From Veillonella sp. DNF00869 (GTDB taxonomy: Bacteria; Bacillota; Negativicutes; Veillonellales; Veillonellaceae), in the NCBI RefSeq assembly GCF_001553345.1, contig NZ_KQ960771.1, positions 492,759 to 556,758 of the forward strand: DNA of 64,000 nucleotides. Direction: 5' to 3'. Below, one piece after another: positions 16,580 to 64,000 of the stretch. A program made the position numbers and the translations under genes. Positions within the stretch are counted from its first letter, which is position 1; the number at the start of each line of letters is the position of its first letter. The notes below the pieces were generated by a model. The model made no database searches. It was not told the DNA's origin and was given only the letters and a program-made list of their open reading frames with translations.

Positions 16580-17044
16580 TTATTTCACTGTTTCCGTAAA
16601 AATAATATGAATAGAATCTTCTGTCGGACCTTCTACGATGCGACTATGTACACCATATAGATTTTGAATAAACTCTGGTGTCAACAACTCTTTTGGCGTC
16701 CCTGTGCCAACCACTCGTCCTTTTTCCAAGGCTACTAAACGATGACAGAATTGGGATGCCAAGTTTAAATCATGAACAGCCATCAATACAGTTACCCCAG
16801 CATCACGAACGATTTCCAACATTTCCAATTGGTACTTGATATCCAAATGATTCGTTGGTTCATCCAAAATCAAACATGGGCTTTCTTGTGTTAAGGCTCT
16901 GGCCAAAATCACACGCTGTTGCTCTCCCCCTGAAAGGCTCAAGAAATTCCGTGTTTCCATATGGTCCATCCCCACCTGTGCTAAGGCTTGTCTAGCTATA
17001 GTATAGTCCTCTGGATATACCTCCAAAAATTTCGTACGCCCATA
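16580..17044 (-). pseudogene. Truncated ABC transporter ATP-binding protein (FecE/FhuC type)
   Basis: Only the C-terminal part is present: signature LSGGEQQRVILARAL, Walker B CLILDEPTNHLD and the H-loop VHDLNLA. The Walker A segment and about 80-100 N-terminal residues are missing. Recognisable homology begins near 17044 (YGRTKFLE, matching the 'GR.p' segment before the signature). The frame upstream of that is unrelated and closed by a TGA at 17069-17071. The only early start is a TTG without a ribosome site. This looks like a deletion remnant of an iron-siderophore or cobalamin importer. It lies 25 bases upstream of exbB. Confidence 0.8.
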
Positions 17045-51408: not shown

Positions 51409-52788
51409 TCAAGATTTACCTTGTCCATAAGTCTCACAAGAATCTACAAAAGCTCTAGCCGCTGCCTCACTACCTGAAAAATTTATATGCAAATAAGAGG
51501 CTAAAATATTTTTATAGGAGTATCCCCCTTGATAGGCCTTAGGCTTACGCCCTCCTACTAACTCAAAGGCCCAAGGAAATGGACTTTGTGTAGGTGTCAT
51601 AGTAGAAAAATGAAACTCATGTCCCTGTAAAGTATCTTTCACAGACCCTAAAATACTTGGCTCCAACATAGTAGCACTTACATAACCTACACGTTGTAAG
51701 CTTTGCTGCATTTCACAGGTAGCTGGTACAATCCCCACCATAGGATACGTATTTCCTTCGAAATCAGTCACTGCTTCTGTCATATACATGAGACCGCCGC
51801 ATTCCGCATAGATTGGCATACCTTTTTCACTGGCCTTACGTATACTATCTTTCATAGATTCATTATTCCCTAATTGAGATAAAAACATCTCTGGAAAACC
51901 ACCACCAAAAAAGATCCCATCTACATCTGGCAAGGATTCATCTTGTAAAGGACTAAAATAATGCAACTCCGCCCCTTCTGCTTCTAACGCTGCTAGGCTA
52001 GCTGGATAGTAGAAGGAGAATGCTTCATCCAAGGCGATGCCAATGCGCGCGCGTTTTTCTATAGCCTCTACTACCTCCTCAGTTTCCACAGACAAGTCCG
52101 CCGCACTTTGAGCTAACTCTACTAAGGCTTCTAAATTCACCATGACTTTCACAGCTTCACGAATGGTAGCAATAGCCTCTGTAGGATCAACTTCTGTCAC
52201 TGGTGTCAATCCTAAATGACGTTCTGGTGATTGCATGCGCTCATCACGACGAATGGCACCTAGTACAGGAACCCCTAATTTCTTCATCGCCGTCCGTATC
52301 ATATGTTCATGATTATCCGATCCTAATCGGTTTAAGATAACCCCACCAAATTGTACCTCTGGGTCATAATCACGAAAGCCTTTAGCAATGGCTGCCGCAC
52401 TTTCTCCCATAGCCTTACAATCGATAACTAACACCACCGGAGCTTTTAAATCTTTGGCAACTTGCGCCGTGGAACTAACGCCTTCACGTCCCCCATCATA
52501 AAGACCCATTACACCTTCTATAATAGAAATATCAGCAGTCTCCGCTTGCCCCACAAAAAAGGGAATCAACTTATGTGGTGGCACAAGCCAGGTATCTAAA
52601 TTATAGCATTCTCGTTGACTAGCAATTTTATGAAAGCCCGGATCAATATAATCCGGGCCTACTTTAAATGCCTGTACCGCTTTGCCCTGCTCTGTCAAAG
52701 CCGCCAATAGCCCTGCTACAATGGTTGTTTTTCCAACACCAGAGTTGGTGCCTGCTATAACAATTCTTGGTCGTTGTACAGTGTTCAT
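51409..52788 (-). CDS. cbiA: Cobyrinate a,c-diamide synthase
   Basis: 459 aa. The N-terminal dethiobiotin-synthetase-like ATPase has IVIAGTNSGVGKTT and KVGPDYIDPGFH. The C-terminal glutamine amidotransferase domain has the nucleophile in MPIYAECGGLMYMTE and the late His (GHEFHFST). It amidates the a and c side chains during adenosylcobalamin synthesis. Last gene of a short minus-strand cbiK-cbiL-cbiA group. Confidence 0.94.
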   Translation of the reverse strand: MNTVQRPRIVIAGTNSGVGKTTIVAGLLAALTEQGKAVQAFKVGPDYIDPGFHKIASQRECYNLDTWLVPPHKLIPFFVGQAETADISIIEGVMGLYDGGREGVSSTAQVAKDLKAPVVLVIDCKAMGESAAAIAKGFRDYDPEVQFGGVILNRLGSDNHEHMIRTAMKKLGVPVLGAIRRDERMQSPERHLGLTPVTEVDPTEAIATIREAVKVMVNLEALVELAQSAADLSVETEEVVEAIEKRARIGIALDEAFSFYYPASLAALEAEGAELHYFSPLQDESLPDVDGIFFGGGFPEMFLSQLGNNESMKDSIRKASEKGMPIYAECGGLMYMTEAVTDFEGNTYPMVGIVPATCEMQQSLQRVGYVSATMLEPSILGSVKDTLQGHEFHFSTMTPTQSPFPWAFELVGGRKPKAYQGGYSYKNILASYLHINFSGSEAAARAFVDSCETYGQGKS

Positions 52789-52798
52789 AAAATACCTC

Positions 52799-53506
52799 TT
52801 AGCGATCTTTACGTTTCGCCAAAATTGTAGATAAATAGTTTAATTTTGTATCAGATGGCAAAGCATCTACATTACGATAGACTTCTTCCTCTGGTAATCC
52901 AACACGAGAAATCATCACAGCCTCTTCTGCCATATCATGTTTGCGAAGTGTTTCTTGCACTTCAGAGAAGTTTCGATACACTTTCATAATGACTGCATCA
53001 TCAGCTACGGCAAGTACAGCATCAATTTTTTCTTTTGGTGCTGTAGCTGGAATAATCGCTAATACTTCTTCTTTTTCTACAATTGGGTACCCCAAGTGGG
53101 ATCCGATTGCACAAAATGCAGTAACACCTGGAATAGTTTCAATATCAAAACCAGCAGATTCTACTAAGCGATATACATACATATATGTACTGTAGAACAT
53201 TGGATCTCCCAATGTTAAGAATACAACTTTTTTACCTTCTTCTAGTAATCCAGTAATGATTCTACGTGCTTCTTCCCAACCTTTAGATTGTTCAGTATCA
53301 TCCAATACCATTGGGAATACAACAGGTACGATTTCTGTATGTTCTTGAATATATGGTTCTGCAATATGTAAGGCTACAGAGCCATCTTTTTTTTCTGTTT
53401 TCGGTGTAATAATGACATCTGCTTCTCCAACAATGCGAGCAGCTTTTACAGTCATCAACTCAGAGTCCCCAGGACCTACACCAATACCATATAATTTACC
53501 TTTCAT
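52799..53506 (-). CDS. cbiL: Precorrin-2/cobalt-factor-2 C20-methyltransferase
   Basis: 235 aa tetrapyrrole methylase. The start KLYGIGVGPGDSELMTVKAARI, TLGDPMFYSTYMYV and the ETIPGVTAFCAIGSHLGYP segment identify the C20 enzyme. The ATG at 53506 has GAGGTG upstream; the in-frame extension to 53617 is non-homologous. It sits between cbiK and cbiA, consistent with the anaerobic cobalt-early route. Confidence 0.93.
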   Translation of the reverse strand: MKGKLYGIGVGPGDSELMTVKAARIVGEADVIITPKTEKKDGSVALHIAEPYIQEHTEIVPVVFPMVLDDTEQSKGWEEARRIITGLLEEGKKVVFLTLGDPMFYSTYMYVYRLVESAGFDIETIPGVTAFCAIGSHLGYPIVEKEEVLAIIPATAPKEKIDAVLAVADDAVIMKVYRNFSEVQETLRKHDMAEEAVMISRVGLPEEEVYRNVDALPSDTKLNYLSTILAKRKDR

Positions 53507-53667
53507 CAGGACACCTCTTTTATATATCAACATTGAACTAGTAAGAATCACTAATTCCAAACTACTATAATTAATTAGTATATCATGACTTGCTATGAAT
53601 GTACACGACACCACCAAGTATTTCTCTTATTAAGTCGCATAACCACCGACATACATGATTTATAGTT

Positions 53668-54492
53668 TTATAATCGTCTTTGGTATAAACCTTGCATAGC
53701 ATCTGCTAAGTGTTCTACATAGATGTCTTGAATTTCGGCATATTCACCAAGACCTTTTTCGTATTGTACCACTTCATAGCCTGCTTTTGTTAATTCAGAA
53801 AGTAAACTATCTTCTTCCTCTCCGAATAAATCATTCAATGCATGGTCACCACAAACTAATAATAGAGGATGTAAATGTACTTTCTTAGGTTCGTGACCTT
53901 CTCGTTCCCATCGTTCTAAAATATCTTCAGGTGTTGGGAAATTTTCCAATGTAGCAATGGATGTATTACGTAAACCGTCATGTTGTAATTTCAATTGTAG
54001 CACTGCATAGGATGCATTCCCTACATTAAATCCACCATGACCTACTAAGAGTAAATCTTCTGTTTCAGGAACCTGTAAGGCCTTAATAAAGCGATCAATC
54101 AAAATTTGGTAATCGTCTGGCACTTCCTCCTCTTGTCCCATAAAATACAAAAGTGGTCTGCCAAATACAATTTCTTGTACAGAGCCTTGTCCTTTGAACG
54201 CCATAATATTTTTTCGAAGCTTATCAAACTCTGCACCACCTACTAAATGTGTAGGCTGCACAATGATGCGCTCATAGCCTTCTGCCACAATCGATTCCAT
54301 CGCCTCAATTTCATTTTGGAATATAATATTTCTATCTTTCAAACGCTTAATGACAATACGTGATGTAAAGGCTAACCGTACTTCATGACTCGGATTTGCT
54401 TTACGAATGGCATCTACGACTGGGAAAATTTGATTTTCTCTTGCGCTGTCTACAGTAGAGCCAAAAGATGTAACTAATATAATCTCTTTCAT
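53668..54492 (-). CDS. cbiK: Sirohydrochlorin cobaltochelatase CbiK
   Basis: 274 aa chelatase. The opening KEIILVTSFGSTVDSARE, QPTHLVGGAEFDKL and VGHGGFNVGNASYAVL (metal-binding histidine) match CbiK. It inserts cobalt into sirohydrochlorin at the start of the anaerobic cobalamin pathway. No signal peptide is present, so it is the cytoplasmic form. No cobalamin riboswitch could be recognised upstream. Confidence 0.93.
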   Translation of the reverse strand: MKEIILVTSFGSTVDSARENQIFPVVDAIRKANPSHEVRLAFTSRIVIKRLKDRNIIFQNEIEAMESIVAEGYERIIVQPTHLVGGAEFDKLRKNIMAFKGQGSVQEIVFGRPLLYFMGQEEEVPDDYQILIDRFIKALQVPETEDLLLVGHGGFNVGNASYAVLQLKLQHDGLRNTSIATLENFPTPEDILERWEREGHEPKKVHLHPLLLVCGDHALNDLFGEEEDSLLSELTKAGYEVVQYEKGLGEYAEIQDIYVEHLADAMQGLYQRRL

Positions 54493-59600: not shown

Positions 59601-60086
59601 TTATTGACGGCTACCTAATTTGGAGTCCAAGAATAATTGTGCAGAACGGCTATCTTGTGCAAATGTGAATTGATCTACTAGGTCAGTTGCATTCGCTTCT
59701 TCTTCTACTTGTTCTTCTACGAACCAGTTCAAGAAAGATACTGTAGCATAATCTTTTTCTTCTAATGCTAATGCATACAAATTGTGGATTTTGCCAGTAA
59801 TCATTTGTTCATGAGCTAATACAGCTTTTGCTACTTCTAAAGGATTAGTCAATGTAGATGCTGTGTTTTTTACATCACCTAGTGTTACTTTTTCGTTGTT
59901 GCTTTGTAAGTAATCAATGAATTTGAAAGCGTGAGTTACTTCTTCTTGGTATTGTGCACGTAACCATGCGGAGAAACCTTTGAAGTTAGCATCAGCCATA
60001 GCTAAGGAAAGAGCTAAATATGTGGATGCTGCATTAAATTCGAAAATTACTTGTTCGTTAAGAGCTTGTGCTACTTTTTGATTCAT
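59601..60086 (-). CDS. ftnA: Ferritin
   Basis: 161 aa non-haem ferritin. Ferroxidase ligand segments are visible: NEQVIFEF, YQEEVTHAFKF, HEQMITGKIHNL and FVEEQVEEE. It oxidises and stores iron in a 24-subunit shell. The ATG at 60086 (MNQKVAQ) follows GAGGTA; the in-frame ATG at 60101 is too close to that site. It has its own promoter and a leader with a stem-loop. The gene is near metal-handling genes on the other strand. Confidence 0.95.
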   Translation of the reverse strand: MNQKVAQALNEQVIFEFNAASTYLALSLAMADANFKGFSAWLRAQYQEEVTHAFKFIDYLQSNNEKVTLGDVKNTASTLTNPLEVAKAVLAHEQMITGKIHNLYALALEEKDYATVSFLNWFVEEQVEEEANATDLVDQFTFAQDSRSAQLFLDSKLGSRQ

Positions 60087-60124
60087 ATTTTTATACCTCA
60101 TATACTATTTATAAATTGACAATA

Positions 60125-60181: not shown

Positions 60182-60268
60182 TCTTCTTTTTCTATTTTTT
60201 TCGATTTTTTATCATTTATCCTGTATTTTGATAATAGTTGTGAGTTACACAGACTGAAATGCTCAATC

Positions 60269-60310
60269 ATTCATGCATAGCTGACTAAAAGAGAGTATAC
60301 TATTCATGCA
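60269..60310 (+). promoter_or_regulatory. Direct repeat and -10 upstream of the CobW operon
   Basis: ATTCATGCA occurs at 60269-60277 and again at 60302-60310, 33 bases apart (about three helical turns). Between them lies TATACT (60296-60301). The first copy covers the -35 region, where no consensus hexamer exists, so regulator-controlled transcription is likely. Confidence 0.5.
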
Positions 60311-60361
60311 AGAACTTTCATTTTATTATATATAGCATTATACACATTGGAGGTGAAATGT

Positions 60362-61402
60362 ATGATGAAGCTAATCAGTCGTGCTTTTACTAGAGCTAAA
60401 CAAAACTTAAGCTCTCATAAAGTAAAAGTCTATATCGTCTCTGGTTTTTTAGGTGCTGGGAAAACAACCTTTATTCAGCAACTAATACAAGAATTACCAG
60501 ATCCAACAAGAGTTTTAATCTTAGAAAACGATTTTGGTCAAGTCAATTTAGATGGAGCTATCCTCCGGGAAAAAGGCTATACTGTTCGCGAGCTCACATC
60601 TGGATGCATTTGTTGTAGCTTAGCCGGCGATTTTCGTAGAGCTTTAGTAGATATTTTAGACACCCAAGATGTGGATTATATTATTATTGAACCATCAGGA
60701 GTCAGTCAACTATCTGATATTCTAGCTATTTGCAAAGATTCATCTATTGCAAAACGCATTGAGCTCACCGGTTGTGTGTCCATTGTGGATGCTATGCGGG
60801 CGCCTATGTATTATAAAAACTTTGGTGTCTTCTTTAAAGATCAAATTGCTTACTCTAGCCAAGTCTTTATTAGCCACCAAGAAGATGAAGATTTGCTACA
60901 AAACACCTTAGAAATTATTCGTCTCTTAAACCCAGCAGCTCCTATATATATATTGCCTTGGAATGAGATTACCCTTTCAAAATATATTTCAATGTATCCA
61001 CGAGAACAAGCCGTGTCTGCCTTATCTCCTAACAAGAACATTGAAAACCATAAAGGTCATCATACAGCCCGGAATCATCCTGAGATTCCCCATCATGATC
61101 ACATCGCTCATCATGCACAAGCCAAAGATGCTTTCTTGACATGTACCGTGGAGTGTACCTTACCCCGCACCATCGATGAGTGGCAACATCATTTGAAAGC
61201 TCTCATTGAAACGAATACAACCGGCCATATATTACGCTTAAAAGGTTGCATCCCTCTTTCTACAGGTGGACAAGCTTTGGTACAATACAATGGAACTGGT
61301 TTAGAGATTACTCCTACCACGTTACATGATTCATATTTAACCATCATTGGTCCATCTTTGAACAATGATGCGTTACAGTCTTTTATTAACGGAACAATAT
61401 AG
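60362..61402 (+). CDS. CobW/COG0523 family G3E GTPase (metal chaperone type)
   Basis: 346 aa. The P-loop is VSGFLGAGKTTF, followed by the metal-binding CxCC motif (SGCICCSLAGDF), the IIEPSGVS element and a His-rich linker (about 220-255, HKGHHTARNHPEIPHHDHI). The C-terminal CobW_C domain follows. COG0523 proteins move zinc, cobalt or nitrile-hydratase metals. The ATG at 60362 has GGAGG eight bases upstream. It leads an operon with a fused GTPase-permease and a DUF1980 protein, pointing to zinc or another divalent metal. Confidence 0.9.
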   Translation: MMKLISRAFTRAKQNLSSHKVKVYIVSGFLGAGKTTFIQQLIQELPDPTRVLILENDFGQVNLDGAILREKGYTVRELTSGCICCSLAGDFRRALVDILDTQDVDYIIIEPSGVSQLSDILAICKDSSIAKRIELTGCVSIVDAMRAPMYYKNFGVFFKDQIAYSSQVFISHQEDEDLLQNTLEIIRLLNPAAPIYILPWNEITLSKYISMYPREQAVSALSPNKNIENHKGHHTARNHPEIPHHDHIAHHAQAKDAFLTCTVECTLPRTIDEWQHHLKALIETNTTGHILRLKGCIPLSTGGQALVQYNGTGLEITPTTLHDSYLTIIGPSLNNDALQSFINGTI

Positions 61403-61407
61403 AACTT

Positions 61408-62895
61408 ATGCAAACTATTCCCACCTATGTAGTGATGGGCTTTCTCGGTTCAGGAAAGACAAGTGCCATCACAGCTGGTATCGAAAGTCATAAAATTTCA
61501 AATGTTCTTCTCTTTCAATTTGAGCAGGGCTTACAAAGTCCTGCTCTTTCCAACGAAAGAGTACATACTTTCTCCATCGACGATGATCCCAAGAACACTA
61601 TCTCCACTTGTCAACAAATATTACAAGACCATCAGTATCGTGAACTTTGGATCGAATGGAATGGAATGGGGTCCCTAGAACAGTTTGAAACACTTTTTCT
61701 CCGCTCTCCCTTAGGAGATATGCTAACTATTAAACATGTCTATTATGTAACCCATCCAGAATGGGTGGAGTCACAATTACCGTATTTAGGGGAAATTCCT
61801 CTTTCACAAATTCGCTATAGCGATACGGTCATACTGGGCAATACTACGCAAGAAAAGGCTAAAGAGTATACTGAATTAGCTCCTAATAGCACTTGGATTG
61901 CCTGCCAAGATATGAAGCAATGGCCTATTACAAAACCAATACAAACGTCTAAACCTCAATGGAAACAATATGCGATCATCCCTATCCTATTGGCCTTGGG
62001 ATATATGTTTTATGCACAGCCTAATTGGGTAACTATGACCACGGCCATCTTATTACAGATGATACCATTCTTGCTCTTAGGGACTGGTATTTCCGTCATC
62101 GTAGAACAATATGCCTCTCCCTATCGTATCGAAAAATATTTACATCGGTCTCCTATATTTGCCTATATACTAGCTATTATCATGGCTTGTACTATGCCAC
62201 TCTGTGATTGCGCGGTAATCCCTATCTTACGCAGCCTAACACGGCAAGGTATGGAACCGAAAGTTAGTCTATTCTTTACGATGATTAGTCCTTTGCTAAA
62301 TCCCATTGTACTACTCTCCACGTATTATGCGTTCCCAAAAGAACCTACGATACTCTGGGGACGACCTGTACTAGGAATTTTGCTAGCTTTTATTGTAAGC
62401 CAATATTGTGGCTCTCGTATCTACGGTCGTACTGATGCATTCCCTCCATGGAAACAATTAACTCTAGTAAAATCACTGTCAAAAGACATAGGATTTTTCG
62501 GAAGATTACAAGAAGAAACCTTACGCCTATTGCCCTTTATCATAATTGGGTCTATACTAAGTAGTGGGTTACAATTATTTTTACCTAAACAATGGTTGCA
62601 AGATATATCCTTATCTGGCTCCATTTTAGTCATCTTCGGCATGATGGCACTCGCCTTTTGCGTATCCATCTGCTCTACTGCAGATGCCATTATCGCCCGG
62701 TCTTTTATGAACGTCATTCCTTTACCAGGAATCTTGGCATTCTTACTGTTTGGACCTTTATTAGACATTAAAAACTACGTCTTATTACGAAATCTGTTCC
62801 CTAATTCCTTTGTGAAAGTATATAGTATTTCCATTATTCTAGGAACAACGATTATATGTATACTATTTTCGATCATAGGAGGTTATGCACTATGA
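61408..62895 (+). CDS. Fusion of a degenerate G3E P-loop domain with a YraQ/ArsP-type permease
   Basis: 495 aa. Residues 1 to about 190 form a CobW-like domain: P-loop YVVMGFLGSGKTSA, an EWNGMGS where E-P-S-G is usual, and VILGN where NKxD is usual. The CxCC motif is absent. From about 190 on there are roughly eight helices of the UPF0718/DUF318 permease with hallmarks MPLCDCAVIPILRSLTRQG, SPLLNPIVLL, ICSTADAIIARSF and LLFGPLLDIKNYVLL. In Bacillus the permease (YcgR) and GTPase (YciC) are separate. The ATG is six bases after the first gene's stop, without a clear ribosome site, so translation is probably coupled. It is likely a metal transporter; the cargo is unproven. Confidence 0.85.
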   Translation: MQTIPTYVVMGFLGSGKTSAITAGIESHKISNVLLFQFEQGLQSPALSNERVHTFSIDDDPKNTISTCQQILQDHQYRELWIEWNGMGSLEQFETLFLRSPLGDMLTIKHVYYVTHPEWVESQLPYLGEIPLSQIRYSDTVILGNTTQEKAKEYTELAPNSTWIACQDMKQWPITKPIQTSKPQWKQYAIIPILLALGYMFYAQPNWVTMTTAILLQMIPFLLLGTGISVIVEQYASPYRIEKYLHRSPIFAYILAIIMACTMPLCDCAVIPILRSLTRQGMEPKVSLFFTMISPLLNPIVLLSTYYAFPKEPTILWGRPVLGILLAFIVSQYCGSRIYGRTDAFPPWKQLTLVKSLSKDIGFFGRLQEETLRLLPFIIIGSILSSGLQLFLPKQWLQDISLSGSILVIFGMMALAFCVSICSTADAIIARSFMNVIPLPGILAFLLFGPLLDIKNYVLLRNLFPNSFVKVYSISIILGTTIICILFSIIGGYAL

Positions 62896-63650
62896 AATAC
62901 ATTCCTACAATTAACATCCACGCAGCGGTAGAAGTCGTAGCCTCTGCTAGCTGCAGCCTGTCCTTGTTATATTTATTAACAACAGGCTCCATCTATCGCT
63001 TAATTGCCCCTAATTCCTATATCATCGCTTTACTATGGGCCTTGACATTATTACTATTATGGAGCACGATTAAAGCGAGCAAAAACATATTCCGTAAATC
63101 CTATGGCTCTTCTTATCGAAATGCTATCCTATACGGATTATGTACTTTACTATTAAGTCCATCCATCTTCCATGCCCAAGCCTTTGCATTACCAGCAGAA
63201 GAACCGGTAGATCAAGTTATTTCCATTACCAAAGAACCAGTTCCAACGAACGATTATAAAAACATTGGTGATGGTATCGATGATACGCATCGACACATTA
63301 CATTAACATCTAGAAATTATTACGATACCATTTTAAAAGTATCTAATCACATTGAAAAGTATAAAGGATATACCGTATCTGCTACAGGCTATATTTCTTA
63401 TCATGACAAAGCATTACAAGGTAACGATTTTGTATTAGCTCGTGATCTAATGATTTGTTGCGTAGCAGATATGTCACCATTCGGATTACCTACTGAGTAC
63501 TCCTCTACTACGCCATTATTAGAGCATACTTGGTATACAATGGAAGGAACTATCGGCACTCGTAACTTCCACGGCGTAGAACAGCCTTACATCGTAAACA
63601 GCAAAATTACACAAGCCGATGCTATCGATGGATATATTTTCCCTAACTAA
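62892..63650 (+). CDS. DUF1980 / TIGR03943 family membrane protein (YcgQ-like)
   Basis: 252 aa. Two to three N-terminal membrane segments (about 12-60 and 87-105) precede an extracytoplasmic domain with ENDFVLARDLMICCVADMSPFGLP-like cysteines (here LMICCVADMSPFG), the hallmark of YcgQ proteins. These always accompany a UPF0718 permease. The ATG overlaps the permease stop (ATGA) and has AGGAGG upstream. It is the third gene of the metal operon and closes at the 63677-63722 terminator. Confidence 0.88.
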   Translation: MKYIPTINIHAAVEVVASASCSLSLLYLLTTGSIYRLIAPNSYIIALLWALTLLLLWSTIKASKNIFRKSYGSSYRNAILYGLCTLLLSPSIFHAQAFALPAEEPVDQVISITKEPVPTNDYKNIGDGIDDTHRHITLTSRNYYDTILKVSNHIEKYKGYTVSATGYISYHDKALQGNDFVLARDLMICCVADMSPFGLPTEYSSTTPLLEHTWYTMEGTIGTRNFHGVEQPYIVNSKITQADAIDGYIFPN

Positions 63651-63676
63651 TAAGTAATAGATGATTAAGATATGAG

Positions 63677-63722
63677 AAAACCACGTATGTCAGTATTATC
63701 ACTGATATGCGTGGTTTTTATT
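63677..63722 (+). terminator. Terminator of the metal operon
   Basis: AAAACCACG...TCAGT pairs with ACTGA...CGTGGTTTTT with a short loop, followed by ATT. Confidence 0.88.
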
Positions 63723-63807: not shown

Positions 63808-64000
63808 ATGAAACGAATGACTATCGCTTTAATTTCTTCTTGCTTTGCTCTGTTCTTATTTTGCTTTATGCAAATACCTGTAAATGCGACCGATATTTGG
63901 GTAAGCTACGATCGATACGAAAACCTAGATACTTATATTATGGATGACACAATTTCTTATGGCAAATCCCAAAATGGTCCTTGGATATCTGTATCTGTAA
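63808..64000 (+). CDS. Secreted protein of unknown function (partial, N-terminus only)
   Basis: The gene continues past the window end; 64 codons are visible. The start MKRMTIALISSCFALFLFCF is a clear signal peptide, with a likely cleavage after VNA (about residue 27). The mature part begins TDIWVSYDRYENLDTYIMDD. AAAGGAG lies eight bases before the ATG. No family recognised; the cysteine in the hydrophobic core is not in a lipobox context. Confidence 0.7.
   Translation, partial: MKRMTIALISSCFALFLFCFMQIPVNATDIWVSYDRYENLDTYIMDDTISYGKSQNGPWISVSV

Follow-up and report, generated by a model that had tools for sequence, protein, structure and literature searches.

An ArsP_1 permease of a Veillonella metal operon carries a G3E-like domain: a candidate docking half for a neighbouring COG0523 GTPase

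A fusion protein within a conserved three-gene operon

The DNA analyzed here is a 64,000-nucleotide stretch of Veillonella sp. DNF00869 (contig NZ_KQ960771.1, positions 492,759 to 556,758; hereafter the window), which carries on its plus strand, at 60362–63650, a tight operon of three genes encoding in order a COG0523 GTPase, a protein in which a G3E-like domain is fused to an ArsP_1 permease, and a DUF1980 protein (Table 1). The fusion gene starts 5 bases after the COG0523 gene, and an ATGA overlap joins its stop to the DUF1980 start. That the three genes are coupled, as proposed in a first-pass annotation made from the sequence alone, is borne out beyond the window: the trio is contiguous, co-directional and in this order in 26/26 loci examined, namely the window, five of the six named Veillonella loci (L002 was left out here and from the upstream alignment described below), and 20 loci of other genomes.

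The COG0523 protein encoded in the window has a P-loop, ENDFGQ, CICC, IEPSGV and, as the annotation had read, a His-rich linker, with S-H-Q-E-D at the position of NKxD and a weak CobW_C match (20.8 bits, cut-off 22). Its counterparts carry CxCC as well, so that the motif is found at 25/26 loci, the neighbour in locus L068 being cut by a contig end. The DUF1980 partner was also correctly named, its TIGR03943 match exceeding the cut-off of 88.8 bits.

Table 1. Coordinates of the operon and of adjoining features in the window.
Feature	Position	Strand	Evidence
COG0523 metallochaperone GTPase, 346 residues	60362..61402	+	cobW 124.3 bits (Pfam); profile match to YjiA, 1.6e-24
Whole fusion reading frame, 495 residues	61408-62895	+	Single open reading frame
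G3E-like domain of the fusion, residues 1 to ~181	61408..61950	+	Pfam, profile, structure model
ArsP_1 (PF03773/DUF318) permease part of the fusion	61951..62895	+	144 bits, residues 208-488; helical half of model
DUF1980/TIGR03943 membrane partner, 252 residues	62892..63650	+	DUF1980_C 85.9 bits; TIGR03943 95.0 bits
Conserved block, candidate promoter/operator	60253..60319	+	5' of operon; Veillonella alignment
Hairpin and T run, probable intrinsic terminator	63676..63719	+	-27.4 kcal/mol
Divergent ferritin gene	59601..60101	-	PF00210 115.9 bits

The fusion is not a sequencing join of two genes. It is one open frame in 26/26 loci, and full-length matches occur in 6/6 named Veillonella genomes at 80–96% identity in a search with exact query peptides, which reaches close relatives only. 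Stop codons were flagged in 4/26 matches from the class sample, but each of these four frames stays open up to the protein end at 515–516 residues, and the flagged stops are therefore terminal. Nor is the combination of cobW with DUF318 peculiar to the window genome: a protein database search with the fusion returned at least 49 full-length clusters of 495–591 residues, each covering 96% of the query or more. Among the matches listed in a profile search, 44 fusions scored at least 576 bits; next in order were two shorter pieces (462 and 444), a divergent fusion, P0121 (347 bits), and stand-alone permeases at 324 bits or less. In trees, P0121 and the fusion in L068 stand intermediate between the main group and all others, and they may be remnants of steps in the family's history. 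Within the one phylum covered, a phylum-wide sample of 398 genomes gave 5 fusions and a class-wide sample of 380 gave 26, these being overlapping samples whose cut-offs (1e-60 and 1e-90) hide weaker fusions; one of the 26 (G753) was matched over residues 2–359 only, in an open frame of 543 residues.

The single-sequence cobW match of the fusion is weak (22.1 bits, cut-off 20.7; 26.3 bits for the domain alone), whereas the permease half, checked apart, clears the ArsP_1 cut-off of 32.3 bits (Table 1). Assignment of residues ~1–190 to the G3E fold, as first proposed, is nevertheless safe, because profile and structure comparisons both lead to YjiA. A profile built from 15 fusions matched YjiA in the PDB at 7e-14 across the G domain, and one built from 19 fused domains did so at 7.8e-16. 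An AlphaFold2 model of the window fusion (52-row alignment) has a mean predicted local distance difference test score (pLDDT) of 82, with averages by tens of 76–92 over residues 1–180, and Foldseek ranked YjiA first (8e-5), then UreG and HypB. The structural neighbours include SRP54/FtsY, HypB and UreG, and the predicted fold is that of a G3E (SIMIBI) protein. The fusion profile also matches the neighbouring COG0523 gene, from position 2/3 to 172/173, in 6/6 Veillonella genomes, which makes the G domains of the two genes paralogous. In the permease half, conserved columns include P-x-C-D-C-A at 264–269 and S-x-C-S-T-A-D-A at 420–427.

As judged from ratios of nonsynonymous to synonymous substitution (dN/dS) between Veillonella species, the fused domain is under purifying selection (0.14–0.20, compared with 0.05–0.08 for the permease, in five comparisons; the G domain of COG0523 gave 0.02–0.03 in four).

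A G3E family without a metal site, and its second architecture

Residues were compared in an alignment of 48 fused-type domains (hereafter G3E'), 29 neighbouring COG0523 proteins and 20 other COG0523 relatives, of which 17 were chosen by hand from the search listing and 3 remained from profile-filtered outgroup reading frames. The nucleotide-binding core is retained in G3E'. In the window the motifs are GFLGSGKT, FEQG and WIEWNGM; the P-loop pattern GxxGxGK[TS] occurs in 26/26 fusions, its Lys in 47/48 G3E' rows (one alignment gap), and both the Glu equivalent to YjiA E39 and the Walker-B Glu in 48/48. Across 19 aligned fused domains, 17 of which are less than 30% identical to that of the window, the P-loop Gly and Lys, E39, G41, and the Walker-B Glu and Asn are invariant.

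The metal site, by contrast, is gone: CxCC is present in 29/29 neighbours and in 0/48 G3E' rows, where its stretch is mostly deleted, and a Glu at the YjiA E37 position is found in 29/29 neighbours, 18/20 other COG0523 proteins and 0/48 G3E' rows. E37, C66 and C67 are the residues altered in the YjiA mutant structure 4ixn, according to its title. Downstream of the Walker-B Glu, the neighbours read E-P-S-G (29/29), whereas G3E' has Asn at the second position (48/48, against 0/49 of the others, which have Ser or Thr there) and Gly or Ser at the third (48/48). Stretches rich in His (4 in 12 residues) occur in 32/35 neighbour reading frames and 0/26 fusions, and no CobW_C (PF07683) match was obtained on the window fusion at E-values up to 1.

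The first-pass annotation had called the domain degenerate for its loss of both CxCC and NKxD. Only the former sets it apart. [NT]KxD is indeed rare in G3E' (1/28 permease-type and 0/20 DUF-type rows), but it is equally missing from the neighbours (0/29) and nearly so from the hand-picked relatives (1/17), while 3/3 other COG0523 proteins of the same genomes have it; [ST]KxD is on record for COG0523 in passages of PMC7895991. Loss of NKxD is therefore not diagnostic, and the informative changes are the loss of CxCC and of the E37 equivalent and the fixed E-x-N-G/S. Since every COG0523 protein is said to carry CxCC (same passages of PMC7895991), the fused domain is G3E but not COG0523, and on these residue patterns G3E' is a distinct family of G3E proteins.

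When the fused domain alone was used as the query, a second architecture appeared: proteins of ~313 residues with cobW at ~4–170 and DUF1980_C at ~192–310, both Pfam families being annotated on 49/120 of the matches listed. These G3E'-DUF1980_C proteins share the E-x-N-G signature (IEWNGT, IEYNGM and similar) and have no membrane segment recognizable by eye. In 12 loci (two on plasmid records, and 10 in 9 of the 398 sampled genomes), the gene directly upstream encodes a CxCC COG0523 protein in 11, and no permease was recognized beside these pairs. A tree was built from 95 G domains (fragments P0161 and P0166 left out). A single branch, which was not starred (Shimodaira-Hasegawa-like approximate likelihood ratio test support, 91.5), has all 46 G3E' rows, permease-type and DUF1980-type alike, on the same side, and 28/29 COG0523 neighbours fall in one starred set of 30 tree rows; several end branches are long, and therefore details of the tree are unsafe. 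Further, tree distances of the permease-type fused domains and of their neighbours correlate (rho 0.55, n = 18, 0/2000 shuffles).

The DUF1980_C domain shared by the two systems has its own signature. The window protein contains R-x4-C-C-x2-D-x4-G, and in an alignment of 65 domains (fusion operons contributing 26, the second architecture 17 after 3/20 rows were left out, and stand-alone operons 22) the pattern R-x4-[CH]-C-x2-D-x4-G...W has its Arg, second Cys, Asp, Gly and Trp invariant in 65/65, while the first position of [C/H]-C-x2-D is occupied by Cys 59 times and by His 6 times. This Cys/His exchange looks like that of a metal site. In the model of P0184 (whole-model pLDDT 73, with the C-terminal half better than the second half of the G domain), the C-terminal half folds into a beta barrel, for which Foldseek ranked OB folds highest, and DUF1980_C is accordingly predicted to be one.

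Stand-alone ArsP_1 permeases served as a comparison. At the 22 best-scoring stand-alone loci (1.5-kb flanks; seven near-duplicate fusions left out), a DUF1980 gene adjoins in 22/22, and a COG0523-like reading frame was found in 7. In L035 (minus strand) an ArsP_1 permease lies in a 627-residue open frame, the N-terminal part of which resembles PKD repeats by eye (WDFGDGT, WDFNDGT), and this is perhaps another, different ArsP_1 fusion.

Metal, direction of transport and surroundings

The gene neighbourhoods support the reading as a metal operon. A Fur-family gene is near the trio in 4/26 loci: in L065 together with ABC-3 permease and ABC ATPase genes, in L066 with the same set plus ZnuA (PF01297), in L068 with ZnuA and ABC genes (the latter by eye), and in L067 with CbiM. 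None of these Fur-family proteins reaches a named Zur, Fur or PerR equivalog cut-off, and therefore the name Zur is not proved. In Bacillus anthracis, according to parts of PMC6336718, Zur binding was located upstream of two genes, BAS1632, which encodes an ArsP_1 permease, and BAS1633, which is yciC. Because of the Znu-type and Fur-family neighbours and the Zur binding in B. anthracis, zinc is our best guess for the metal. Cobalt is the main alternative, because vitamin B12 genes occur in the window and in L128. In the former (51409–54492, 6 kb from the operon) CobB and CbiL score above cut-off and a CbiK-like gene below it, with ctsR-mcsAB-clpC-like genes (by eye) and the ferritin gene in between; in the latter (L128:1148–8196), CbiE/T, CobB, CbiC and CobQ come directly before the genes for a CxCC COG0523 protein and for G3E'-DUF1980_C, an order that possibly links the second architecture to B12.

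As for direction, outward transport is preferred, since the nearest named NCBIfam relatives of the permease are efflux proteins. These are the SO_0444 and SaoE transporters, both far below cut-off; the SO_0444 Cu/Zn efflux equivalog (NF033936), for example, scores 52.4 bits on the fusion against a cut-off of 300.

Upstream of the operon, positions 60253–60266 and 60269–60278 are identical across six aligned Veillonella sequences (the window and five loci), and this stretch is possibly an operator for some regulator; an Rfam scan of the upstream block gave nothing above gathering score. In the window and L001, the upstream stretch has TATACT flanked on both sides by ATTCATGCA, which is not seen in the other four Veillonella sequences. 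A palindrome, ACCC-N2-4-GGGT, lies 65–71 bases before the conserved COG0523 start in 4/25 fusion loci (L072, L073, L082 and L084) and is a candidate operator of that sub-group. At the other end, the hairpin and T run (z-score -8.2, equally stable shuffles 0/200), which a simple terminator scan did not list, probably closes the operon as an intrinsic terminator. Directly 3' of the operon, at 63808–64000, begins a small secreted-type protein (start MKRMTIALISSCF), and similar-looking reading frames occupy the same place in L001 (L001:8279–8665) and L003. The ferritin gene adjoins the operon in 6/6 Veillonella loci inspected, the window among them. Elsewhere in the window, a short reading frame at 16580–17026 resembles, by eye, an ABC ATPase that lacks its start and is reduced to the C-terminal half, possibly a truncated gene.

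A proposed docking role and comparison with known systems

From the fusion and its predicted fold, the residue patterns, the neighbours, the two architectures and the constraint on the domain, we infer a pairing, a nucleotide state, a metal and a direction of transport. We hypothesize, with slightly better than even confidence, that the 495-residue protein combines a metal permease with a docking half for the neighbouring COG0523 metallochaperone. In this mechanism the CxCC site of the COG0523 protein, which depends on nucleotide, would take up a divalent thiophilic metal, with zinc as the likeliest candidate; in CobW, as described in passages of PMC7895991, a tight thiol site for the metal arises through Mg and the GTP gamma-phosphate. 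The loaded G domain would then pair face to face with the fused domain, which retains the phosphate-binding residues and would serve as the half without metal; G3E proteins such as HypB do dimerise (passages of PMC9164220). Pairing would bring the metal to where the permease opens to the cytoplasm (C266-D267-C268 and C422), and hydrolysis would open the chaperone site so that the metal is handed on, with DUF1980 acting as partner or acceptor through the [C/H]-C-x2-D site of its putative OB fold. In the second architecture the docking half would be joined straight to DUF1980_C, so that the chaperone could reach this domain without an adjacent permease gene. A docking or regulatory module was already the suggestion of the first-pass annotation and is still the best class of explanation; the second architecture is the strongest argument for docking, since two fusions of one domain, both beside the same chaperone clade, are hard to explain otherwise.

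An extended version of the hypothesis, which we put forward tentatively and at somewhat less than even confidence, is that G3E' is an undescribed family of E-x-N-G paralogues without a metal site, that it forms the obligate second half of a two-GTPase delivery machine with one COG0523 clade, in a part comparable to that of FtsY beside SRP54, and that domain shuffling directs the chaperones either to ArsP_1/DUF1980 or to OB-fold DUF1980_C. If so, COG0523 proteins would have membrane and effector receptors.

Several observations weigh against docking as set out above. DUF1980_C appears to be extracytoplasmic in the membrane form but is probably cytoplasmic in proteins without membrane segments (L125, L126 and L128–L137, by eye). 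One G3E'-DUF1980_C gene, in L137, has no COG0523 neighbour, although it is a second copy in a genome with a normal pair. The DUF1980 type gives no mirror-tree signal (rho 0.23, n = 11, 303/2000 shuffles), and common ancestry alone can yield distance correlations such as that of the permease type. The fused domain is the fastest-evolving part of the system. On the metal, no metal transporter was recognized by eye beside the trio in the other 22 fusion loci, and efflux is not easy to square with genes for zinc uptake at the operon's side. In the suggested comparison with Zur regulons, no convincing motif was common to the Veillonella operon upstream regions and those of znuA-type or Fur-family genes.

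Alternatively, the fused domain may itself bind nucleotide and open or close the permease in the manner of FeoB, without pairing with COG0523. The retained P-loop and acidic residues would suit such a cis-acting gate, for which FeoB offers a precedent of nucleotide-driven metal permeation in one chain (passages of PMC9164220), but we regard it as unlikely, given that a COG0523 gene adjoins the fusion in every locus examined and that the same domain occurs on a protein with no recognized permease beside it. If, on the other hand, the domain were an inactive remnant that only aids assembly, with neither nucleotide binding nor chaperone contact, then the loss of metal and base-recognition motifs and the relatively high dN/dS would be expected, whereas the invariant P-loop Gly and Lys, E39, G41, and Walker-B Glu and Asn would hardly have been kept; such a scaffold seems quite improbable.

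The remaining alternatives concern the cargo. Permease and DUF1980 may form a Zur-regulated zinc importer, the G3E pair receiving incoming zinc rather than supplying it, and this would agree with the Fur-family and ABC genes beside the trio in L065, the additional ZnuA in L066 and L068, and the association of COG0523 proteins with zinc limitation (parts of PMC2770081 and PMC6336718). However, the closest named ArsP_1 families, distant as they are, are efflux proteins, and both Zur boxes in B. anthracis lie upstream of the permease promoter, which the authors read as positive regulation (parts of PMC6336718); import therefore looks doubtful to us. A role in handling cobalt for cobalamin synthesis, which the B12 genes of the window and L128 and the CbiM gene of L067 might suggest, is very improbable: such links concern 1/12 second-architecture loci and, for CbiM, 1/26 fusion loci (the remaining loci being judged by eye only), and an unrelated operon separates the cobalamin genes of the window from the trio. 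Moreover, early cobalt insertion by CbiK needs no CobW.

The docking hypothesis bears on a standing question, namely what COG0523 proteins deliver metal to and how these targets are found; many COG0523 clusters have no characterised member, according to passages of a 2022 review (PMC9164220). A paired domain without a metal site, in two fusions to ArsP_1 or DUF1980, would point to candidate clients for one chaperone clade. It would also provide a lead on YcgR/YcgQ, homologous to streptococcal ScfAB, for which parts of PMC5584981 report a fitness phenotype and no known function. As the COG0523 and G3E'-DUF1980_C pair seems to be without membrane segments, the idea is testable without membrane proteins. 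Both domain pairs are already visible in precomputed Pfam columns of the protein database and are not discussed in the literature that was searched; the annotation's remark that the fusion was undescribed held for that literature. The searched text of Haas et al. 2009 (PMC2770081) contains none of the terms "permease", "fused", "fusion", "COG0701" or "COG3689"; DUF1980 is named in a single paper of the collection searched, and TIGR03943 and UPF0703 in none of the 24 papers that any of five family names brought up; and a 2021 COG0523 review by Edmonds and others may mention the neighbourhood.

Compared with known systems, the first gene of the operon is a true COG0523 member, and the fused domain shares with COG0523 proteins (YjiA, YciC/ZagA, CobW, ZNG1) the G domain fold, the P-loop and the hhhE-x-x-G Walker B, but it differs in the absence of CxCC, an E37 equivalent and CobW_C, in the Asn two residues after the Walker-B Glu, and in its fusion to a membrane protein. 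YcgR/YcgQ (ScfA/ScfB, SMU.746/747) are adjacent genes of the same ArsP_1 and DUF1980 families, neither protein carrying a G3E domain. The annotation had named YciC, YcgR and YcgQ as separate Bacillus equivalents; separate genes are indeed found in B. anthracis and on a Priestia plasmid, where permease and TIGR03943/DUF1980 are distinct, yet the window protein is not YciC fused to YcgR, because a complete COG0523 gene is present as well, to which the fused domain adds a second G3E protein. SO_0444-type Cu/Zn efflux proteins and ArsP have a PF03773-type permease without a G3E domain. FeoB similarly combines a nucleotide-binding domain and a metal permease in a single chain, but its G domain is of another class than G3E, and a Pfam scan of the fusion at E-values up to 1 returned cobW and ArsP_1 only, with no FeoB family. 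Finally, the proposal resembles SRP54-FtsY and other paired SIMIBI GTPases, in which two related G domains, one of them tied to the membrane, come together, although the families are different and the pairing in the operon described here is a proposed one.

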